Virus record (IMG/VR): IMGVR_UViG_3300010300_000028
Span: 1 to 45,589 of that record
DNA length: 45,589 bases
DNA from: a virus
Reading direction: 5' to 3' (one strand)
Of this stretch, positions 27,617-44,604 are shown in pieces; the first letter of the stretch is position 1, and each line of letters starts with the position of its first letter. Under the pieces are notes generated by a model, which was not told where the DNA came from, did no database searches, and saw only the letters and a program-made list of their open reading frames with translations. Made by a program: the position numbers and the translations under genes.

Positions 27617-27866
27617 CGCTTTTTGTTATCTTGACTCATGTGAATGTATAGTAAACGTCTTCATGATCAATGGACTACCCTTCACCTTTGAGGATGAAGG
27701 GTTTGATCCCCATGACGGTGATGTTATTGCCGAAGCAAACACCAATCCTCAGATTAAGATGGAAGACCTATATAGATGGTCGGACTACCTGATTGCTGAG
27801 GAGATGCATCCGATTCTCTATGAGATGTCTGAACTCATTGAGAATTATCAAGATGTGCCTGATTAG
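27597..27866 (+). CDS. Hypothetical acidic protein ending inside a tRNA gene
   Basis: 89 residues, very acidic in its second half. The stop TAG (27864-27866) uses the last acceptor-stem-adjacent bases of the tRNA-Thr gene that begins at 27857. Start at 27597 overlaps the previous gene by 20 bases. No recognised motif; two Cys pairs are not spaced as a zinc finger. Confidence 0.6.
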   Translation: MKYKVSNAFCYLDSCECIVNVFMINGLPFTFEDEGFDPHDGDVIAEANTNPQIKMEDLYRWSDYLIAEEMHPILYEMSELIENYQDVPD

Positions 27867-27930
27867 CTCAGCTGGATAGAGCAACGGTTTTGTAAACCGT
27901 AGGTCGTCGGTTCAAGTCCGACATCAGGCT
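27857..27930 (+). tRNA. tRNA-Thr (anticodon TGT)
   Basis: A full cloverleaf of 74 bases: acceptor GCCTGAT/ATCAGGC, D arm with GCTC...GAGC, anticodon stem ACGGT/ACCGT with loop TTTGTAA (anticodon TGT, reads ACA), T arm GTCGG TTCAAGT CCGAC, discriminator T. CCA is not encoded, so it must be added after transcription. ACA codons are common in the phage genes. Confidence 0.95.
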
Positions 27931-32093: not shown

Positions 32094-35000
32094 ATGGCAC
32101 TAACTCGTCTTAAAAATATCATCACGTCTAGGACTGGACGTATTATCTACGTCAACCCTGACGACTTCGATGCATCGGACGCATATGATAACCGAGGTAA
32201 CTCGGCACTGCGTCCGTTTAAGACATTACAACGTGCGTTTCTTGAAGTGGCACGATTCTCCTATCGTGTTGGTCTGAGTAATGACGAATTCGACGCATTC
32301 TCGATCTATCTGTATCCTTCTGACTACGTTCTAGATAATAGACCTGGGGTAACAGATTACAATGATGTTCAACCGTTTGATGCTAACACTAACTTTGACC
32401 TGACGAGTAGTAGCAATGTTCTTTATAGGTTTAATTCAACTCGCGGTGGTATTATTGTCCCTCGTGGTGCTTCTGTTGTTGGTTCGGACCTACGTCGAAC
32501 CAAGTTCATTCCAAAATATGTCCCGTATCCCACAGTACAGGGTAGTCTCGGTATTACTGCTACTAATGAACCTACTGCTTCTGCGATCTTTAACCTAACT
32601 GGTGGTTGTTACTTCTGGCAGGCATCTTTCTTTGATGGTGATACCAATGGTGTCTACTATCGTGGTGATGACATTGCAACTATTGCACCGAACTTCTCTC
32701 ACCACAAACTTACTTGCTTTGAGTTTGCTAACGTAGAAGATCTGAACCTGTACTACCAGAAGATCTCGAAAGCATACGCTACGATTCCTGACTCCTCTGG
32801 TGTGGTTGCACAGGACCAGTTGCAGGCAAGAATCGAAGAAAACAGAATTGTGGGTCCGATTTCGGACGAATTTGCTGTCTCGCAGATTATCAGAAATGGA
32901 CAAACTGCTACGGCGTTTACTGTTGACGAGATCGGTAACCCGAAGAATCATGGATTCTCCGTGGGTGTCGCTGTTAATATATCTGGCGTTAATGGTCCTA
33001 CTGAGCAGGATAAACTACTCTATAATGGATCGTTCCTGGTAACATCTGCACAGGGTAACCAGTTTACTTATCAGATGTCAGCAGAACCCTCAGGTAATGC
33101 TATCGGTTCAAACATCCTCGTTAAAGTTGAGATTGACACGGTTGACTCTGCGTCACCATATGTGTTCAACATGTCCCTACGTTCTGTGTGGGGTATCAAT
33201 GGTATGCACGCTGATGGTTCGCGTGCAACTGGTTTCAAATCGATGGTGGTTGCACAGTTCACTGGTATCTCCCTCCAAAAGGATGACCGAGCATTTGTAG
33301 TTTATAACCCTTCCTCTGGAAACTATGAACCACAAGCAGCAGGATCTGGCGCACACATTAATGGTCTTGCTGAGTACCGTAAGGGATGGCGTCACGCGCA
33401 CATTAAGGCATCCAATGATTCATTCATTCAGGTTGTGTCTGTGTTCGCTGTGGGATTTGGTGATCACTTCTTCGCTGATAGTGGTGGTGACCTTTCTATT
33501 ACCAACAGTAATAGTAACTTCGGAAATACATCCTTGCGATCCAAAGGTTTCAAAGCAACTGCCTTCACAAAGGACAAAGCGGGACAAATTACTCACGTTA
33601 TCCCACCCAAGTCGTTGGATGACGTTGATGAAATCTCGATTAACTGGGTTACTATCGACATCAACGCCACCCGAGCAGAAGCAGATAACTCGCGTCTGTA
33701 CTTATACGGTTACACCTCTGAATTAGGTAGACCACCTAGCAAGATTCAAGGTTACACTATTGGTGCAAGACGTGATGATGTTAATACTCCTGATAGAGTA
33801 TATGTAGCACTTGTTGCTGCTGGCGCGTCTGAACCAACTACACATTATGCTGACATCTCACCCTCTGGTCCTGATGTAACTGGCACAAGAGCAGGTGATG
33901 ATGAGAGTCCAATCAAGTATGATACAAACCGTGGTCAGTGGTATCTACAAGTAGATAACGCTAACAATACTATCTACACCACACTGCAAGCAAACTCGCT
34001 GTATCAGAACCTTGGATTTACTCCTACTACTTTTATACGTCGTGTACCTGATGCTCGTGATCTGACTGACAGAACCTATCGTTTCCGTTATGTCTTGGAT
34101 AAGGATGCATTCCCGATTCCTCGTCCTCCGATTACTGGTTTCGTACTGCAACCCAGATCATCTGAAACTAACTCACCTGCATACTCTAAAACATACTATG
34201 TGTATGACGTAGAGACATTCCAAGAGTTCGTGATTGGTGAGACTGATGGTATCTACTACCTTACAATTCTGTCTGCGTCAGTATCTCCCATCACCTCTAA
34301 CTTTGATGACTTTGAGTTCTCTCAACAGACAGTAGACATCTATCCTGCATTCGACAGAGATAACCCTGTTGCTGACCCTGCTGCCGCTGTGTCTATTGCA
34401 GACAATGAGGTTCTGGGTTTGGTTAAAACTACTGATGGTGCAACTCCTACTCCTAACGAAGACACTCAGTTGTCTATTACTAAGGAGACTGCACAGTTCT
34501 TCCTGCTTGAAGGAAACAACAACCTTGGTTATACCACCACAACAAATACTCTGTCTAACATTGTCGTGACTGCACGTCTGGGTGATGAGGAAGATAGAAA
34601 GATTCCTCTGAAACTCAACACTGATGGTTCTATCGCTCCTCTGAGTATTGAACTCCGTCGTTATTCTATTCTTCGTGCATCTGGTCACACGTTTGAGTAT
34701 CTTGGTTTCGGTCCTGGTAACTACTCAACAGCATTCCCATCTACCCAGGTTGAGGTTCTCTCACCTGAGCAGGTTAGATTGTCACAGTCACTCAAAGAAG
34801 CAGCAGGTGTTGCATACTACTCTGGTGTGAACTCTGACGGTGAACTGTTCGTTGGTAACCAGGTGATTAACCCTGTTACGGGTCAGATCACTAACGAAGA
34901 TATTGCACAGTTGAATGTGTTGGGTGAAGAAGGTACAACGATTGAAACCTTCTCTGAGTTGGTGCTGACTGATAAACTTACTGTTATCGGTGGTGCATCT

Positions 35001-35669
35001 AACCAGTTGGAGTCTGTGTTCTCAGGTCCTGTAACCTTCCAGAAGAAGATTACTTCACAGAATCAGATTCAGTCTCTGAACTTTACCTACTCGAACGATG
35101 ATGGTACTGTTCTGAGGCAGACATTCCTTGCCGAAGAGTTAGGTTCTGGTCTGCCTGATCTTGATTCTGGTCTTGCATTTAATAGTGGAGACATCTGCTA
35201 TAACATTGATTGGGTTCCTGGTCAATCACTTGGTTGGGTCTATGATGCTGGTACATGGTACAAGTTTGGTCTGAGTGATACCACTCCGATCACATCTAAC
35301 AGATTCAGTGGCACTACCAACTATGGTATTGGTATGGCACCTGATGCATCTAACCGCTTGAAGATCAGTGGTAACACATACTTTGATGGTGACATTGATG
35401 TTACTGGTAAGTATGGATGCGCTGATAAATATTCATTAGCAACTGGTATTGCTAATGGCAATAGCGGTGTGACATATAGTGGTGATGGTTCCACACAAAC
35501 GTTTGGTATCTCACCTGGACACACTGCATTCTCTGTTTTGGTATTCCTTAATGGTGTTGCACAGATCCCTGGCACAGACTATACAGTAACAGGTAACGCT
35601 GTTGACTTCTCTGTCGCTACACCTCCTGCAACTGGTGACACCATCCATATTCGTGAACTTGTTATCTAA
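32094..35669 (+). CDS. Large virion structural protein (fibre-like, beta-helix start)
   Basis: 1191 residues. N-terminus has the MALTRLKNIITSRTGRIIYV type start and GNSALRPFKTLQRAFLEVAR, common in cyanophage fibre proteins with a pectate-lyase-like parallel beta-helix (GTRGGIIVPRGASVVGSD type). Later parts have many beta strands, Thr, Asn and Gly. The C-terminal 60 residues (SVLVFLNGVAQIPGTDYTVT) look like a fibre-tip beta domain. No catalytic motif seen. Longest gene of the window. Confidence 0.75.
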   Translation: MALTRLKNIITSRTGRIIYVNPDDFDASDAYDNRGNSALRPFKTLQRAFLEVARFSYRVGLSNDEFDAFSIYLYPSDYVLDNRPGVTDYNDVQPFDANTNFDLTSSSNVLYRFNSTRGGIIVPRGASVVGSDLRRTKFIPKYVPYPTVQGSLGITATNEPTASAIFNLTGGCYFWQASFFDGDTNGVYYRGDDIATIAPNFSHHKLTCFEFANVEDLNLYYQKISKAYATIPDSSGVVAQDQLQARIEENRIVGPISDEFAVSQIIRNGQTATAFTVDEIGNPKNHGFSVGVAVNISGVNGPTEQDKLLYNGSFLVTSAQGNQFTYQMSAEPSGNAIGSNILVKVEIDTVDSASPYVFNMSLRSVWGINGMHADGSRATGFKSMVVAQFTGISLQKDDRAFVVYNPSSGNYEPQAAGSGAHINGLAEYRKGWRHAHIKASNDSFIQVVSVFAVGFGDHFFADSGGDLSITNSNSNFGNTSLRSKGFKATAFTKDKAGQITHVIPPKSLDDVDEISINWVTIDINATRAEADNSRLYLYGYTSELGRPPSKIQGYTIGARRDDVNTPDRVYVALVAAGASEPTTHYADISPSGPDVTGTRAGDDESPIKYDTNRGQWYLQVDNANNTIYTTLQANSLYQNLGFTPTTFIRRVPDARDLTDRTYRFRYVLDKDAFPIPRPPITGFVLQPRSSETNSPAYSKTYYVYDVETFQEFVIGETDGIYYLTILSASVSPITSNFDDFEFSQQTVDIYPAFDRDNPVADPAAAVSIADNEVLGLVKTTDGATPTPNEDTQLSITKETAQFFLLEGNNNLGYTTTTNTLSNIVVTARLGDEEDRKIPLKLNTDGSIAPLSIELRRYSILRASGHTFEYLGFGPGNYSTAFPSTQVEVLSPEQVRLSQSLKEAAGVAYYSGVNSDGELFVGNQVINPVTGQITNEDIAQLNVLGEEGTTIETFSELVLTDKLTVIGGASNQLESVFSGPVTFQKKITSQNQIQSLNFTYSNDDGTVLRQTFLAEELGSGLPDLDSGLAFNSGDICYNIDWVPGQSLGWVYDAGTWYKFGLSDTTPITSNRFSGTTNYGIGMAPDASNRLKISGNTYFDGDIDVTGKYGCADKYSLATGIANGNSGVTYSGDGSTQTFGISPGHTAFSVLVFLNGVAQIPGTDYTVTGNAVDFSVATPPATGDTIHIRELVI

Positions 35670-37187: not shown

Positions 37188-37991
37188 ATGACTAGACTAT
37201 CAGTCGCACAAGTTAAGGACTTGAACAATCAAGGCGGTATGTCGTTCTCGAACGGAGCGATTACTGCTAACGGCACTCTTACTGTTAGTGCGATTGTTAT
37301 CAATGGTAATGTTACTGGATCCTCAGGTTATATCATTCCGTCACAGAGTGGACAATCAGGTAACTATTTGTACACAAACGGTTCTACCATCTCGTGGGTA
37401 GGTAATGCAACTAACCTCGGCATCCCTAACTCGATCTCTGTATATAATGGTAACTCTACTTGGAACAAACCTAGTGGTGTAAAACGTATCTGGGTTATGT
37501 GTACTGGTGGAGGTGGTGGTGGATCAGGTTATGGTGAATCTGGTGCCGCTGGTGCTCACACGGAGACTTTTGTAGATGTCGCAAACATCAACTCGATTAG
37601 TGTTCAAGTCGGTGGTGCTGGTAGTGGGACTAATTATAGTGGTCGCGCTGGCAATGGTGGAACGTCATCATTTGGTAACTACTGTTCATCAGGTGGTGGT
37701 CAGGGAGCAAACCGTAGGCAACAACATAGCGGTGCAGATGGTGGAACTCCTAACCAAGGTTCAGTTAGAATCTATGGTGGATCTTCCCAGGGTCATAGAA
37801 ATCCCCCAGGTCTAGGACACGGTGGTCACTCTTATTGGGGTGGATCTTCTCCAACATCCCATAGACAGCAACAATGGGCACAGAGACATAGAACACATGC
37901 TGCCTATGGCGCTGGTGGATCATCTGGTAAGAACAGTGAGCGTGGTGGTGATGGTCGTGTGGGCATCGTCGTAGTCTACGAATTCATTTGA
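37188..37991 (+). CDS. Glycine-rich tail-fibre tip protein, copy 1
   Basis: 267 residues. The N-terminal third is a short shaft with NGTLTV and INGNVTGSSG repeats; then a Trp-containing strand region (IWVMCTGGGGGGSGYGES) and a long Gly/Ser/His/Arg-rich domain with GNGGTSSFGNYCSSGGGQ and a repeated RQQQW/HGG pattern, ending VVVYEFI. Glycine-rich tips of this kind bind host surface sugars or proteins in other phages. Paralogous to the next gene over its whole length, each with its own late promoter. Confidence 0.78.
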   Translation: MTRLSVAQVKDLNNQGGMSFSNGAITANGTLTVSAIVINGNVTGSSGYIIPSQSGQSGNYLYTNGSTISWVGNATNLGIPNSISVYNGNSTWNKPSGVKRIWVMCTGGGGGGSGYGESGAAGAHTETFVDVANINSISVQVGGAGSGTNYSGRAGNGGTSSFGNYCSSGGGQGANRRQQHSGADGGTPNQGSVRIYGGSSQGHRNPPGLGHGGHSYWGGSSPTSHRQQQWAQRHRTHAAYGAGGSSGKNSERGGDGRVGIVVVYEFI

Positions 37992-38827: not shown

Positions 38828-39289
38828 ATGAAAAGAGCACTTGTCCGCGCTGACGGATTTATCACAGACATAGTAGAAGAAGGCGATGAGTTTGAGATCT
38901 ATACAGGTCCTGGCGCTAGTATGAAGTGGGTTGACATTCCCGAGGATGCCACTAATATGTGGAAACTTGAACTCGGTGAGTGGATCCCTGACTTCGTACA
39001 TCACGACGCTGAAACACTTCGTGTGGTAGCATATGGTGATCCTGGTGAACAACTCTCGATGATCTATAATGACATCAAGAATGGTACACTTAACCAAGAA
39101 GGTGAGTTCTTCAAGCACATCAATAATGTGAAGGAAACTATGCCTAAGGTAGAGTATGATGCTGAGGGTAACAAAATTGTACCTGATGAACCATTCCCTC
39201 ACGATGAAACTATGCCTGCATGGTGGACTGTTGATCAGATGTCTGATGATGTTCAACAAGAATTTAAGATCGGCAAATATGCAGAGTAA
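38828..39289 (+). CDS. Possible tail-fibre assembly protein
   Basis: 153 residues. YGDPGEQLSMIYNDIKNGTL and FFKHINNVKE fit a pattern seen in phage tail-fibre assembly or chaperone-like proteins that follow fibre-tip genes. Otherwise acidic, with two Trp-rich pieces. Function by position and pattern only. Confidence 0.55.
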   Translation: MKRALVRADGFITDIVEEGDEFEIYTGPGASMKWVDIPEDATNMWKLELGEWIPDFVHHDAETLRVVAYGDPGEQLSMIYNDIKNGTLNQEGEFFKHINNVKETMPKVEYDAEGNKIVPDEPFPHDETMPAWWTVDQMSDDVQQEFKIGKYAE

Positions 39290-39298
39290 TTAATTGTT

Positions 39299-40891
39299 AT
39301 GCACATTCGTAATGTCCTCATCGTAGGGGGCGGTACTGCTGGTTGGATGACCGCTGCCGCCCTTTTGAAACTCTGTCCTCATATTAAAACCTCACTGATT
39401 GAGAGTAAGAACTATCCCATCATTGGTGTGGGAGAGTCTACACTTGGTCAGATTAATGATTTCTTTGCCATCCTTGACTTGAAGGATGACATGTGGATGA
39501 AGGAAACAGGATCCACATACAAAGTAAACATTAGATTCAATGATTTCTACCAGCAGGGTGAGACTTGGGACTACCCGTTTGGTAAAGCACAACCCATCAT
39601 CAATCAGAATTATCCTCATGGATGGATGTCATGGTTTGCTCTGAATCTACGCAAACCAGATAAGTTCAGTCGTGATACATTTGCTCGCTCACACAATGCT
39701 GTGGGTCATCTTGCTTGGAATAATAAACTAACAGGCAAGGATGATAACTGGAATCATGATGCTGATACTGCATACCATATGGATGCAATCAAGTTCGGAC
39801 AGTGGTTGAAGAACAACTACTGTGAAGGACTCAACTATATGCAGGGTGATGTTGCTTCGTGTGAGAAGGATGAGCGTGGATATATCACGTCACTGATTAC
39901 CACTGATGGGCAGCGATTAGAGTATGATCTATACATTGACTGCACGGGATTCAAGTCATTGCTACTTGAAAACTTCATGGGTGTTCCCTTTGAATCATTC
40001 CATGTAGATGCTGGTGGTTGTTTACTCAATGACAGTGCAGTAACATGTCATCTACCACACGAAGATCCTGAGACAGAGGTAACCAATACCACAAACTGTA
40101 CTGCCATTGAGAATGGTTGGGTGTGGGATGTTCCACTGTGGGAGAGATCTGGTTGTGGATATGTATACTCATCTGGATTCTCTACCAAAGAGAAAGCAGA
40201 AGAAGATATACATGCCTATGTTGCTCGCACACGAGGTATCAAACGTGCTGACAATATCGGATCATTCAAGCATGTACCATTCAGAAATGGTAAGCATAAG
40301 AAGTCATGGCACAAAAATGTATGTGCAGTAGGATTGTCTAATTGTTTTGTTGAACCATTAGAAGCAACTGGTCTACTTACTACACACGAACAGATCATTA
40401 GACTATGCAATAACCTTGCTGGTCGCGATGGTTTTGTGCCTAGGGTTGAGGTGGATATGCTCAACTTGGTAGCAGACTTAGAGATTGAAGGATTCAAGAA
40501 TTTCATTGCTGCCCACTATGCTTTCTCTAACAAACAGACAGAATACTGGAAGTATGTTGCTAATGAAATAGAGTATGATATGTCAACAGCAGAACTAGAC
40601 AATCTCTTCGTGAGATATAGTAGTGAGAAGCATGTATCGTATGAATGGATTGGTGATCCTGCCCACAATGATGGTCTACGTTATGTTGGTGCTGGTATGG
40701 GATTTAATCCGCTAAATAATCACACGTTGATACTAAAACGATTACAGAATGGATTGTCACCAGTGCGTGACGAGTTTGCTCTGCAAGGTGCAGAGCAAGA
40801 GATTGACAGATGGAATAAAGAAATGTATGATTGGTGCATGACTTTACCATCATCGTATGAGTACCAAAAGGAAACAATTTACAAGGAGTAA
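39299..40891 (+). CDS. virX1: Flavin-dependent halogenase (VirX1-like)
   Basis: 530 residues of the tryptophan-halogenase fold. GGGTAGWMT at residues 10-18 is the FAD site; Lys75 in TYKVNIRF aligns with catalytic Lys79 of PrnA; Trp274-x-Trp276 with DVP is the WxWxIP motif that excludes monooxygenase activity; Glu355 in EPLEATG matches PrnA Glu346. Such enzymes make HOX from FADH2, oxygen and halide and deliver it through the Lys. VirX1, from cyanophage Syn10, is a characterised enzyme that favours iodination; this looks like a relative. A flavin reductase is not in the window. Start 10 bases after the preceding gene. Confidence 0.93.
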   Translation: MHIRNVLIVGGGTAGWMTAAALLKLCPHIKTSLIESKNYPIIGVGESTLGQINDFFAILDLKDDMWMKETGSTYKVNIRFNDFYQQGETWDYPFGKAQPIINQNYPHGWMSWFALNLRKPDKFSRDTFARSHNAVGHLAWNNKLTGKDDNWNHDADTAYHMDAIKFGQWLKNNYCEGLNYMQGDVASCEKDERGYITSLITTDGQRLEYDLYIDCTGFKSLLLENFMGVPFESFHVDAGGCLLNDSAVTCHLPHEDPETEVTNTTNCTAIENGWVWDVPLWERSGCGYVYSSGFSTKEKAEEDIHAYVARTRGIKRADNIGSFKHVPFRNGKHKKSWHKNVCAVGLSNCFVEPLEATGLLTTHEQIIRLCNNLAGRDGFVPRVEVDMLNLVADLEIEGFKNFIAAHYAFSNKQTEYWKYVANEIEYDMSTAELDNLFVRYSSEKHVSYEWIGDPAHNDGLRYVGAGMGFNPLNNHTLILKRLQNGLSPVRDEFALQGAEQEIDRWNKEMYDWCMTLPSSYEYQKETIYKE

Positions 40892-40893
40892 TT

Positions 40894-41331
40894 ATGTCTG
40901 AGTTGCTTGAAGATGTGCAAGGTCTTCCTGAGTTTGAACCTGAAACCATTGAAGAAGTAGATAGTCCTGAGGAAGCAGTCAAGTCGCTGGAAGATCTCTG
41001 GCGCAATCTTATCTATCAGCATCGTACGAAGTATGAAAAGTACACTGCTTTCAATGCATCTCTGTCTAGCATGAACTTCGATGAACAAGAGACACGAATT
41101 GACTTCACTGAGATGAATAATCTGCGTGATGAGATTGTTAAGATCGAAGGTGGTCTCGAAACTCTTAATCTGTTCCGCACTCTTGTTCTAAAAGAAGAAG
41201 CAGAACCTTGGATTCAGGAAGAGATTGAAGCAAAGCGTAAGATCAAAGTACGCACACGTCCTGGTTACGAAAAGTATGCTGACTGGGAGTCTGATAACGC
41301 TGGTTCAGATGCCCTGAACACAGTGAAGTAA
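40894..41331 (+). CDS. Hypothetical helical protein after the halogenase
   Basis: 145 residues, acidic, mostly helical with a coiled-coil-like region (residues 25-110) and a basic C-terminal patch (KRKIKVRTRPGYEKY). AAGGAG lies just upstream of the ATG. Its stop overlaps the next start (TAATG). No recognised family; may partner the halogenase or the oxygenases. Confidence 0.65.
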   Translation: MSELLEDVQGLPEFEPETIEEVDSPEEAVKSLEDLWRNLIYQHRTKYEKYTAFNASLSSMNFDEQETRIDFTEMNNLRDEIVKIEGGLETLNLFRTLVLKEEAEPWIQEEIEAKRKIKVRTRPGYEKYADWESDNAGSDALNTVK

Positions 41332-42044
41332 TGAACCTAGACTATATTTTCCCCAGTCCTATCTGGTGGGTGGATCTAGACATTGATCTTCAAGAGATGG
41401 AGAACATTGTCTACAACGTTGCCAATACTATGGAAGGCAAGGACCGTAGCAATCGGGGTGTACTGAACTATCAGTCCCCCGATTTTATGGGTGAACAGGT
41501 TATCAATGACAAAGAACTTGAAGGTGATGAGTTTCAAAAACTCCTCATCATTATCAAGGAGAAAGCAATAGAAGCATTCAAGTCATATGGCACACCATGG
41601 ACTACCATTGAGTATGCAAATGCTTGGATAAACATCAACAACCATGGTGGATATAATGAGGTTCACACACATCCTGGTGCTGTGATGTCTGGTGCTTTCT
41701 ATGTCAAGGTGCCCGAAGGTGATTGTGGTAGACTAGTCTTCCATCGTGATGCTACTGAGGGTTATGTGTTACACTCAGTGGGAACATCTGAGGATATGAG
41801 TACAGCAGAGGTGCCACATACACACTCAACATGGTCATATCCACCTGTTGCTGGTAGACTAATGCTATTCCCAGCATGGCAAGCACATGGTGTGAGAGAG
41901 AACATGACACAAGAGGATCGTATTAGTATCTCGTTTAACTTTATTCCTCAACGTACACGTCATGACATGATGTCAATCATTAAAGAGCATGAATCTAAAC
42001 TTGTTCCCCGTGCCCATCAGGCGCGGATTTATAGTCCCGACTAA
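41331..42044 (+). CDS. 2OG-Fe(II) oxygenase family protein (Oxy_5 type)
   Basis: 237 residues. Typical of the 2OG-FeII_Oxy_5 family: NNHGGYNEVHTHPGAVMSGAFYV with His112-x-His114, then AGRLMLFPAWQAHGV with His186 and Arg197 as 2-oxoglutarate contact (ISISFNF). The acid of the usual HxD is not seen in this pattern. Predicted to oxidise a protein or small molecule. Start overlaps the upstream stop; the next oxygenase starts 55 bases before its end. Confidence 0.8.
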   Translation: MNLDYIFPSPIWWVDLDIDLQEMENIVYNVANTMEGKDRSNRGVLNYQSPDFMGEQVINDKELEGDEFQKLLIIIKEKAIEAFKSYGTPWTTIEYANAWININNHGGYNEVHTHPGAVMSGAFYVKVPEGDCGRLVFHRDATEGYVLHSVGTSEDMSTAEVPHTHSTWSYPPVAGRLMLFPAWQAHGVRENMTQEDRISISFNFIPQRTRHDMMSIIKEHESKLVPRAHQARIYSPD

Positions 42045-42645
42045 GATACAACAGAGGGAGACTAATGAAGTCCTCTGGCGTTACTTTGATCAGGCAAAAG
42101 AAAATACATGGGCACTAGAATCAGGTAAAACTACTGCTAACTTACCTGGTGGTGCTAATCTGTTTGAAGATGTAGCATTTGATTGGTTGACACTACCCAT
42201 CTTGGATGATGTTAAAGACTACTGGGTGAATACTCTTCACTATCGTAGAGATTATCACATGTATATGGATAGCATGTGGGCAAACTTACACTATGAAGGT
42301 GATAGTACAGGTGAGCATTGTCATGTCAATGGACGTGGTAAATCACATGTGTCATTGGTATACTATTGGTCAAAGGATAATGCTGGTGGTCACTTGCAGT
42401 TTAGGAATCCACTAGAACATATACTCAGACACTGCCCACTTGATGCACCATATGATGATTGGTCACGCGAGTGTGGTTATAACTATGACTGGAAGACTAT
42501 GGGCATGGGTGTGCATGAGTATGTTATGTTCCCCTCCTGGTTGATGCATAGAACACAACCAAATACCAAGTGTGAGCGTATTGCTTTCAGCATGAACTTT
42601 GCTGGTTTCCCTAATGACCCCACGGAGAATGAATGGACGTACTAA
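41989..42645 (+). CDS. 2OG-Fe(II) oxygenase family protein (Oxy_5 type)
   Basis: 218 residues, overlapping the previous gene by 56 bases. Same family pattern: GEHCHVNGRGKSHVSLVYY with His110-x-His112, VMFPSWLMHRTQP with His187 and Arg197 (RIAFSMNF). N-terminus NLFPVPIRRGF is typical for this family, supporting the start. A paralog of the previous protein at low identity. Confidence 0.78.
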   Translation: MNLNLFPVPIRRGFIVPTKIQQRETNEVLWRYFDQAKENTWALESGKTTANLPGGANLFEDVAFDWLTLPILDDVKDYWVNTLHYRRDYHMYMDSMWANLHYEGDSTGEHCHVNGRGKSHVSLVYYWSKDNAGGHLQFRNPLEHILRHCPLDAPYDDWSRECGYNYDWKTMGMGVHEYVMFPSWLMHRTQPNTKCERIAFSMNFAGFPNDPTENEWTY

Positions 42646-43352
42646 TGCTACCCTTCCTGAATCCTCAGGAGTTTGTATGTGGTGACAAACCAAAGGTGTG
42701 GCGTAATGCTCTACCTGACCCCACACAATATGTCAACTGGGATACAGTCACGCACTGTTTCAATAATCCATGGTATTATAGAACTCAGGTCCTCAATATG
42801 GAGGGTCGTCGTCTCATGTTACCTGAGAAGTTTGAAGTATGGTATGAAAAGGGTGTGCCACATAAGCATGAACTATTCCAAGCAATCAATGAAGGACATA
42901 CATTCATCATTGAGCAGTATGGTCATTACAATCCAGCAGTAGATAATCTGCTGAATAACATTGAGTCACGGTTTGATTGTAACTGTGATGCACACATCTT
43001 TGGTAGTGCTAAGGCAGGCAGCAAGTCATTTGGTGCCCACTGGGATCTACCACCAAACTTTATTTGTCAGATTGATGGTGAGACCCACTGGAATGTATTT
43101 GAGGAGAGATGTAGTGGTCTGATCGAAATGACAGATGAACCATATCTCCCAGATAAAGCAGGGCAAGAGTTACACATTGCCCTAGATGTCACCTTGTCAC
43201 CTGGTGATGTCATGTATATTCCAGCAAGAACTTACCATAAACCATTCCCAGGTGGTAAGCGATTGTCTATGTCTATCCCTTGCATGTATCCCCGTGACGT
43301 ACCCAGCGACCGTAAACAATATGTTATTGAGTTCGACACATCCTCTTCCTGA
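42633..43352 (+). CDS. Cupin/JmjC-type oxygenase
   Basis: 239 residues. Fe(II) ligands are clear: His136-x-Asp138 in GAHWDLPPNF and His202 in PGDVMYIPARTYHKP. The QIDGETHWNVFE strand is the usual third element of JmjC-like hydroxylases such as ribosomal oxygenases. Likely hydroxylates a protein. ATG is in the end of the preceding gene; the next oxygenase overlaps its 3' end by 32 bases. Confidence 0.82.
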   Translation: MDVLMLPFLNPQEFVCGDKPKVWRNALPDPTQYVNWDTVTHCFNNPWYYRTQVLNMEGRRLMLPEKFEVWYEKGVPHKHELFQAINEGHTFIIEQYGHYNPAVDNLLNNIESRFDCNCDAHIFGSAKAGSKSFGAHWDLPPNFICQIDGETHWNVFEERCSGLIEMTDEPYLPDKAGQELHIALDVTLSPGDVMYIPARTYHKPFPGGKRLSMSIPCMYPRDVPSDRKQYVIEFDTSSS

Positions 43353-43887
43353 TGTACTCGTAGATCAGATTGAAGAGATAGTTACTCAACAACAGTTTCC
43401 CTGGTATCTTGTCAAAGAGACCACATTTGCTGATGGTGGTTATAGACCATATGAAGGTAAGTTTGATAATAGTTCGTTCTCACATGTTGTGGTGATGGAC
43501 TATGAACCTGTCTCACAATACTATGACCTATTTGAATCTGCGTTGAGGTTAATTGCTGATGATGCTGGTCAGGATTTTCGTGATATTTATCGCGTCCGTC
43601 TTGGTTGCCTACTACCTGACAAACTAGATCACCACTGTCCACATGTAGACTTTGAAGATGAACATGTGACAGCATTATATTATGTCAACAAGAGTGATGG
43701 TGATACTATCTTCTTCTCTCACGAGATGAGTATCTTCCAACCTAGATGTCAGTTAAGAGTATCACCTGAGCGTGGAAAGATGCTACTATTCAATGGTAAC
43801 GTACTACATGCATCATCATCCCCCACTAGTGGGTATCGCATCGCTCTTAATGTTAATTTCAGAAAGAGGGTATCGACAACCCGTTGA
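43321..43887 (+). CDS. 2OG-Fe(II) oxygenase
   Basis: 188 residues from ATG at 43321, which overlaps the upstream gene by 32 bases; an earlier in-frame ATG at 43186 is deep inside it. His108-x-Asp110 (CPHVDFED), YYVNKSDGDTIFF, LLFNGNVLHASSSP with His163, and Arg173 before the last strand (RIALNVNF). A paralog of the 44077 protein. Substrate unknown. Confidence 0.82.
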   Translation: MLLSSTHPLPDVLVDQIEEIVTQQQFPWYLVKETTFADGGYRPYEGKFDNSSFSHVVVMDYEPVSQYYDLFESALRLIADDAGQDFRDIYRVRLGCLLPDKLDHHCPHVDFEDEHVTALYYVNKSDGDTIFFSHEMSIFQPRCQLRVSPERGKMLLFNGNVLHASSSPTSGYRIALNVNFRKRVSTTR

Positions 43888-43923
43888 GTTTCGCTACAAT
43901 GTGGTGGTTATGACCGTTAAATA
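43873..43923 (+). promoter_or_regulatory. Promoter region: weak sigma70 plus late motif
   Basis: TCGACA at 43873-43878, 16 bases, TACAAT at 43895-43900 give a weak sigma70 candidate; TTAAATA at 43917-43923 is late-like. Both precede the small ORF at 43944 and the oxygenase at 44077. Confidence 0.4.
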
Positions 43924-43943
43924 GTTACGGTTCTCTGCCTGCG

Positions 43944-44123
43944 ATGACCATGTTTCTCAAAACGCAACAACTGACCGAGGAACAGAAAGTGTTACTCAAA
44001 CATGCACTGTTCAGTCTTCAAAAAGAGTATCATACAAAGTATGGTGAAGTTCCTCTAAGCAAAAGGAAATTGATTGATGAAATTGCGACCTCCTTACATC
44101 TCCGACATGAGGATCATCGATGA
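43944..44123 (+). CDS. Small hypothetical protein (59 aa)
   Basis: ATG at 43944 opens a 59-residue frame ending at TGA 44121-44123: basic, helical (LTEEQKVLLKHALFSLQKEY), filling the gap between two oxygenase genes and overlapping the next by 47 bases. No Shine-Dalgarno is clear. Plausible but unconfirmed. Confidence 0.45.
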   Translation: MTMFLKTQQLTEEQKVLLKHALFSLQKEYHTKYGEVPLSKRKLIDEIATSLHLRHEDHR

Positions 44124-44604
44124 TTTTCTTGATGTTGAGTATCATGCCCACCTCCATGATATACTCATGGGGTGGGAGTTTCCATGGTACTATCAACACA
44201 CACTCACACATGGGTGTAATCAGTTACAAGCACATGGATTCAACCATTGGTTGACTGATGATGGAGATCCTGACTTTGCACCACTGGTACAAAGAATGCA
44301 GGATGAAGTATCTGCCAAAACATGTCTACGAGTGAGAGCAGATATGACACTATATAATCCTGAGGGTTATCGTCATGACTTTCATGTAGACTGTAAAGAA
44401 CCTCACACGGTGTGTATCTATTATGTCAACGACACTGATGGCGACACTATTATTCTGGGAGACAAGAATGATCACGACATCGTTCGTGTTCAACCTAAAA
44501 AGAATAGACTCCTAACATTCAACGGACGACACTCGCACACTGGGCATTCACCTAGTAAGCACAAAAACAGAATCCTAATCAACGCCAACTTTAAGCAAGT
44601 ATGA
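44077..44604 (+). CDS. 2OG-Fe(II) oxygenase
   Basis: 175 residues from ATG at 44077 (TTG at 44074 and ATG at 44107 are alternatives). His103-x-Asp105 (FHVDCKEPH), YYVNDTDGDTIIL, LLTFNGRHSHTGHSP with His154 as distal ligand, Arg165. Paralog of the 43321 protein (shared YYVN.(S/T)DGDTI and N(A/V)NF). Last oxygenase of the island; ATGA overlap with the next gene. Confidence 0.82.
   Translation: MKLRPPYISDMRIIDDFLDVEYHAHLHDILMGWEFPWYYQHTLTHGCNQLQAHGFNHWLTDDGDPDFAPLVQRMQDEVSAKTCLRVRADMTLYNPEGYRHDFHVDCKEPHTVCIYYVNDTDGDTIILGDKNDHDIVRVQPKKNRLLTFNGRHSHTGHSPSKHKNRILINANFKQV

Follow-up and report, generated by a model that had tools for sequence, protein, structure and literature searches.

Genetic Organization of the Island

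The window analysed here is the whole 45.6-kb virus record IMGVR_UViG_3300010300_000028 of IMG/VR (45,589 nucleotides), whose baseplate, tail and fibre genes are T4-like. As shown in Table 1, genes for a flavin-dependent halogenase, for a small protein of coiled-coil-like character and for five Fe(II) oxygenases form an ordered run at positions 39299–44604, all on the plus strand. Its left neighbours encode a long tail fibre, two paralogous Gly-rich fibre tips and a chaperone-like protein of family phrog_1787, and the halogenase gene starts 10 bases past the end of the phrog_1787 gene. This island is described here as a candidate system for modifying the phage's own tail-fibre tips.

A first-pass annotation of the window had placed a helical protein and five Fe(II)-oxygenase genes after a VirX1-like halogenase, and all of them were recovered at the same positions. 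It had also described the genes as overlapping and free of terminators. A consensus scan of the island gene junctions found no terminator-like match. The chain of overlaps is broken at oxD, which starts at ATG 44077 after a gap of 189 bases. The start of oxC is most likely ATG 43321 rather than 43186, because the protein start translated from it agrees with that of the S-WAM1 ortholog.

Table 1. Genes of the island and of its left flank in the window.
Feature	Position	Strand	Evidence
Long tail-fibre protein, 1191 amino acids (aa)	32094..35669	+	phrog_529 tail fiber, E=0; S-SZBM1 ortholog gp52
Fibre-associated protein, 288 aa	35689..36555	+	phrog_29506; S-SZBM1 ortholog gp51 (287 aa)
Gly-rich tail-fibre tip paralog 1, candidate substrate	37188..37991	+	PF21722 Gly_rich_2; phrog_863
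Gly-rich tail-fibre tip paralog 2, candidate substrate, with Gln178-His179 loop	38023..38823	+	PF21722; phrog_863; AlphaFold2 (AF2) model and Foldseek
phrog_1787 protein, probable Tfa-like tip-assembly chaperone	38828..39289	+	phrog_1787, E=2e-26
Flavin-dependent halogenase, VirX1 clade, 530 aa	39299..40891	+	PF04820; 6qgm; K75/E355
Small helical protein	40894..41331	+	Homologs in most islands, elsewhere placed too
Fe(II)/2-oxoglutarate (2OG) oxygenase oxA, Oxy_5, HxH...H...R	41331..42044	+	PF13759, E=2e-24
Fe(II)/2OG oxygenase oxB, Oxy_5	41989..42645	+	PF13759, E=5e-10
JmjC_2 protein hydroxylase (predicted), H136xD138...H202, R210xS212, 239 aa	42633..43352	+	PF08007, E=3e-15
Fe(II)/2OG oxygenase oxC, Oxy_3, HVD...H...R	43321..43887	+	PF13640, E=1e-6; phrog_274
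Fe(II)/2OG oxygenase oxD, Oxy_3, HVD...H...R	44077..44604	+	PF13640, E=3e-6; phrog_274

Halogenase, Oxygenases and Small Helical Protein

Judged by its sequence, the halogenase is a member of the flavin-dependent tryptophan-halogenase family and belongs to the VirX1 clade. It matched PF04820 with E=5e-95 and 319 bits (curated cut-off 21) and phrog_2928 with E=9e-153, and its best PDB match was VirX1 (6qgm, E=6.5e-107). The motifs GGGTAG (GxGxxG-type) and WVWDVP (WxWxxP) were found and Lys75 and Glu355 were invariant in 14 island halogenases, bearing out the full set of catalytic residues reported by the first-pass annotation. VirX1 of cyanophage Syn10 is 38% identical to the window halogenase over its full length. 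It is the second halogenase of Syn10 (locus L006, 8001–9593), the 6qgm sequence agreeing with that row of our alignment, and it sits in a like island with tips, a phrog_1787 gene, two halogenases and an oxygenase run.

oxA and oxB matched PF13759 with 86.5 and 40.3 bits, respectively (curated cut-off 27). The Oxy_5 family proposed earlier was upheld for both, but instead of the canonical HxD/E...H facial triad they carry an invariant HxH...H...R, which is likewise present in their nearest solved relatives, 3bvc and 2rg4. The ortholog groups of oxA and oxB were found in 82 and 40 of 88 islands, respectively. oxC and oxD, which scored only slightly above the curated cut-off of PF13640 and have no PDB relative, carry the full triad (HxD...H...R), as does the JmjC protein (H136xD138...H202). 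Both are members of phrog_274 and bear its label "DNA endonuclease V", which conflicts with the PF13640 match and the HxD...H triad. RefSeq cyanophage genes named "DNA endonuclease V" or denV (phrog_274) are likewise PF13640 Fe(II)/2OG oxygenases with HxD...H...R, and the label looks like a propagated misannotation. Two further ortholog groups, F4 and F6 (about 270 and 264 aa), occur in 57 and 44 of the 88 islands, respectively, for example at L006 9577–10365 and 11204–11995; their Syn10 members had no Pfam match, and F6, with an HxD...H-like pattern, may be a further oxygenase.

The JmjC protein, in which H136, D138 and H202 are invariant, matched the profiles of NO66 (1e-13), MINA53 (4e-10) and YcfD (3e-7). 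These ribosomal oxygenases (ROX) share the PF08007 fold and the HxD...H iron ligands with it, and its nearest solved relatives are protein hydroxylases acting on His or Arg of ribosomal proteins. However, ROX chains in the PDB have 373–489 aa with C-terminal domains that are missing from the 239-aa island protein. ROX enzymes also have a 2OG-binding Lys downstream of HxD (PMC6006756), and this position is an invariant Thr151 in the island JmjC, which has an RxS motif (R210xS212) instead. Membership in the ROX group was ruled out, since both the Lys and the C-terminal domains are missing.

The oxygenases might instead serve DNA repair or the sensing of 2OG and nitrogen. A role in DNA repair was suggested for other cyanophage 2OG oxygenase genes near uvsX/Y/W (PMC9146016), and a possible link to 2OG has also been suggested (PMC3037559). 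With the JmjC protein closest to protein hydroxylases and the endonuclease label of phrog_274 contradicted by the PF13640 match and the triad, this explanation is highly improbable.

Homologs of the small helical protein occur in all nine reference islands, eight of them recovered by single-sequence search and the last with a profile; the protein itself matched no curated family in Pfam or PHROGs above the cut-off. It has an EGGLETL-type motif in common with a coiled-coil-like protein of 66 aa (L029 26308–26508), which adjoins the neck genes even in an S-RIM44 isolate without the island.

Fibre Tips and phrog_1787 Protein

PF21722 was matched by all 21 tip proteins tested, and the conserved non-Gly positions of the tips include several His and aromatic residues. 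The tip profile had no match in the PDB by sequence; only the predicted fold of tip paralog 2 (AF2, pLDDT 82) led to Pam3, with fibre protein gp24 as the top Foldseek match (7ypx_A, E=1.8e-8, TM 0.55). Pam3 gp24 has a Gly-rich domain at the fibre tip, whose proposed role is host binding, and is followed by the chaperone gene gp25 (PMC9608196), an order resembling that of the Gly-rich tips and the chaperone-like gene beside the island. Modifying enzymes are not described for Pam3 in that paper. The AF2 model of the phrog_1787 protein (pLDDT 93) showed N-terminal strands followed by helices. None of its fold matches was significant, including Pam3 gp25 (E=0.83); the first and third were the fibre chaperones of Pam3 and Mu (E=0.8–1.8). 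The phrog_1787 protein is probably a Tfa-like tip-assembly chaperone.

Conservation and Linkage of Tips and Enzymes

The same gene order was found in S-WAM1, S-SZBM1 and P-RSM6 at 67–75% DNA identity, and in Syn10, S-CREM1, P-TIM40, S-RIM44, Sf-FP1 and Sf-FR1 at 35–40% halogenase identity, the latter group having one or two halogenases and a varying number of oxygenases. Chance assembly of the island is excluded, because the same order is kept in several genera. Among 50,697 phage records, the tip and phrog_1787 genes occurred in 20 records each, and these were the same 20; the halogenase was present in 20 of the 20 and JmjC in 19. Instead of the random scatter in relatives that would have spoken against a coordinated gene set, co-occurrence and order were conserved.

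Linkage in IMG/VR was determined with profiles built from the reference islands, and loci were scored only on sufficiently long contigs. In the 80 loci with a phrog_1787 gene, the scored cases had tips upstream (74/74) and, on the downstream side, a halogenase (69/69) and an oxygenase (63/63); JmjC was present in 53/56. Loci anchored on JmjC had a halogenase (61/61), a phrog_1787 gene (51/51) and tips (51/51). Linkage was looser from the halogenase, with phrog_1787 at 49 of 67 and tips at 44 of 60 loci. Halogenases outside the module (S-H35, S-MbCM6) lacked tips, phrog_1787 and oxygenase run alike. Several inspected halogenase loci without this tip family had other tip-like proteins instead, which were Gly-rich (L047, L092), Gly/Cys-rich (L048, L051) or, next to a probable fibre gene at L094 and L097, triplets of C1q-like type.

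At L094 and L097 (also L075, L100 and L105), one to three halogenases and several oxygenases are convergent to three tandem proteins of about 310 aa. These have C1q/TNF-like ends, named by eye, and adjoin a probable tail-fibre gene; the enzymes are similar and the tip fold is different. On a 280-kb contig, L048 (162–3415) encodes two Gly/Cys/Trp-rich proteins of 530–552 aa near a halogenase/oxygenase block, with a Cys content unusual for a phage structural protein.

Two S-RIM44 isolates, Np_42_0711 and Np_05_0604, share 97% identity upstream and 94–95% downstream of a variable block, and the fibre between these conserved flanks has a protein identity of only 51–59%. After the fibre, one isolate carries three tips, phrog_1787, two halogenases and oxygenases, and the other has different small genes and one Oxy_5 gene, with no halogenase there. 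Tips and enzymes are present or absent as a unit within S-RIM44.

The fibre-to-neck stretch could simply be plastic, with unrelated enzymes piling up there; in several genomes this stretch is where the island is found, and gene content differs from island to island. Such hitch-hiking is very unlikely, given that the order tips–phrog_1787–halogenase–oxygenases holds across genera with differing downstream neighbours and that tip residue 178 co-varies with JmjC (see below).

The enzymes have also been read as metabolic. In such a reading they would serve to produce a halogenated small-molecule metabolite or an antibiotic, or would change the host's tryptophan, as auxiliary metabolic genes of the cyanophage prnA-like kind. 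Antibiotic protection (PMC2984593, PMC9964418) and halogenation of a host metabolite (PMC10452541) have been proposed, and many small aromatics are halogenated by VirX1 (PMC8407142). For a different cluster, the halogenase/2OG/carbamoyltransferase cluster of jumbo cyanophages S-SSM6a and S-SSM7, synthesis of a halogenated secondary metabolite or capsule decoration was proposed (Iyer et al. 2021, PMC7824862). However, no scaffold-building or carrier enzyme was found in the window's island with Pfam and PHROGs, and neither the complete tip linkage nor the joint loss with tips within a species would be expected of metabolite synthesis. The published cluster itself is directly preceded by genes for a fibre, for three tips rich in Gly and Cys and for a tail assembly chaperone, much like the island, although its halogenase is distant (about 26%) and it has extra sugar and carbamoyl enzymes. 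In S-SSM7 (L262 2673–6720), the fibre, the three tips, a PF16778 chaperone and a DUF6445/2OG protein precede the halogenase, and this cluster may also be a tip-modification cassette. We regard metabolite synthesis by the island as distinctly unlikely.

Co-Variation of JmjC with Tip Residue 178

Across 97 islands, which together encode 246 tips, each column of the tip alignment was checked for association with the presence of JmjC. Column 178 ranked first, with Gln in 194 of the 207 tips from islands with JmjC and in 0 of the 39 from islands without it; the 13 exceptions in the former group mostly have Asn. Gln or Asn stood at 178 in one or more tips of 84/84 JmjC-positive and 0/13 JmjC-negative loci, and His179 was kept in both groups. 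Residue 226 also co-varied with JmjC, less cleanly. Two changes of JmjC were placed on a tree of phrog_1787 and the halogenase, each matched by a change of residue 178. There was one extra change of residue 178, at L240/L241, and 95 of the 97 loci were concordant.

Of the 20 invariant non-Gly columns in the S-RIM44-like clade, 178 alone switched, from Gln to Arg, in all 12 tips of the four JmjC-negative loci. These tips cluster with their JmjC-positive orthologs and not with one another (one of the three groupings has low support); the change therefore either arose in parallel in each of the three paralogs or was spread by local gene conversion. NO66 hydroxylates His216 in GGGNHQHIG (PMC9994133, PMC8667043), a substrate resembling the tip loop of this clade, GANxxHQHCGG, and the likeness may serve as a lead for the modification site. 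Signals between a second halogenase or other oxygenases and tip residues were weak or clade-confounded, and Arg226 and Thr223 were associated with two halogenases in one clade at few loci; no link is claimed for either.

The link between enzymes and tips would also arise if the enzymes modified a host surface molecule (receptor, lipopolysaccharide or S-layer) bound by the tip type, blocking superinfection or the sticking of virions to debris, since both would then concern the same receptor. The linkage and the co-absence with the tip type are accounted for equally well in this way. However, on this view there is no reason to expect the presence of a single cytosolic hydroxylase to go with one particular residue across all tip paralogs. 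Surface glycan chemistry does not usually involve a series of small enzymes resembling protein hydroxylases, and no transporter or export gene was seen in the island. Modification of the host surface is, in our judgement, unlikely.

Proposed Function of the Island

Taken together, we put the probability that the phage's own tail-fibre tips are what the island modifies at about two in three. Of the targets considered by the first-pass annotation (fibres, host surface or host metabolites), the comparative data point to the fibre, and the tip is picked out because of the complete tip linkage, the co-absence within a species and the tracking of a tip residue by JmjC. A "pathway", in the sense of sequential steps on one molecule, is unproven, and parallel modification of several tip residues fits better. 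Also in favour of tip modification are the active site of VirX1, reported as large and accessible (PMC8407142), the other tip types found beside halogenase/oxygenase blocks, and the lack of tip, phrog_1787 and JmjC genes at bacterial halogenase loci (see below).

The island would then form the modifying section of a gene cassette for the tail-fibre tip. The phrog_1787 protein would help to make and fold the fibre together with its Gly-rich tip paralogs, of which there are two here and three elsewhere. Inside the infected cell, ahead of assembly or in the course of it, the enzymes would alter side chains in the loops that connect the Gly-rich strands of nascent or folding tips. For this the halogenase would draw on halide, O2 and flavin reduced by the host, the Fe(II) oxygenases on 2OG and O2. 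JmjC may act at or next to the Gln178-His179 loop (177–179), and conserved aromatic or His residues of the tips are the predicted targets of the halogenase. Modified tips would enter virions, where the modified loops would bind the host receptor.

Several points weigh against tip modification. The chemistry is inferred, in that the enzyme activities, the tips as substrates, the exact residues and an effect on receptor binding are deduced from the observed gene content, order, linkage, co-absence and co-variation. Only two independent gain or loss events of JmjC were found. In the JmjC-negative reference island of the S-RIM44-like clade, L011 (Sf-FR1), oxA and an additional oxygenase family are missing as well; JmjC is therefore not the sole candidate, and the contributions are inseparable there. 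No tip residue comparable to 178 was found for the halogenase, and 18 of the 67 scorable VirX1-type halogenase loci had no phrog_1787 gene upstream. In the virion proteome of S-SZBM1, fibre gp52, the ortholog of the window's long fibre, was detected (PMC9146016 Table 1) and gp51 was listed on one peptide, but the list, which includes the fibre proteins gp51–gp54, contains neither tip, gp48 or gp49 (PMC9146016). The missing tips could reflect low copy number, unexpected modifications or true absence from the virion. No island enzyme was listed either, which fits action inside the infected cell.

More tentatively, and with the balance of probability somewhat against it, large cyanophages and their freshwater relatives may write a combinatorial chemical code on the tips with which they themselves bind receptors. 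With one or two halogenases (up to three) and hydroxylases in varying combination that come and go individually, they would widen the amino-acid alphabet of the tip loops and so set host recognition. Such a code would give a viral adhesin a post-translational modification system of its own.

Each enzyme comes from a known family, and we found no description of the tip-linked gene set, or of tip modification as a system, in the literature covered, which was partial and did not extend to the primary VirX1 paper. VirX1 is treated there as a stand-alone biocatalyst whose natural substrate is unknown (PMC8407142), its surrounding island being undiscussed, and the first-pass annotation had described the state of knowledge in the same way. 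If tip modification is true, this well-studied biocatalyst gains a natural substrate, and the abundance of 2OG oxygenases in marine T4-like phages, noted since the first genome comparisons, is explained. The virus would chemically extend its receptor-binding surface past the twenty amino acids, and its enzymes may lend themselves to halogenating or hydroxylating defined residues of Gly-rich proteins. Some of the genes now classed as "auxiliary metabolic genes" would move to the virion-assembly class, changing how ocean viromes are read.

Bacterial Halogenases and Other Features

The halogenase clade also occurs in bacteria, where all of the 80 GTDB loci were without tip, phrog_1787 and JmjC genes. 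At L331 and L335, tandem halogenases of Alteromonas and Paraglaciecola directly follow a TonB-dependent receptor gene. No literature linking halogenases with TonB-dependent receptors was found, and these loci are a possible parallel in which a halogenase is paired with a surface protein. In the window itself, a tRNA-Thr(TGT) gene lies at 27857–27930, between the baseplate and fibre genes.

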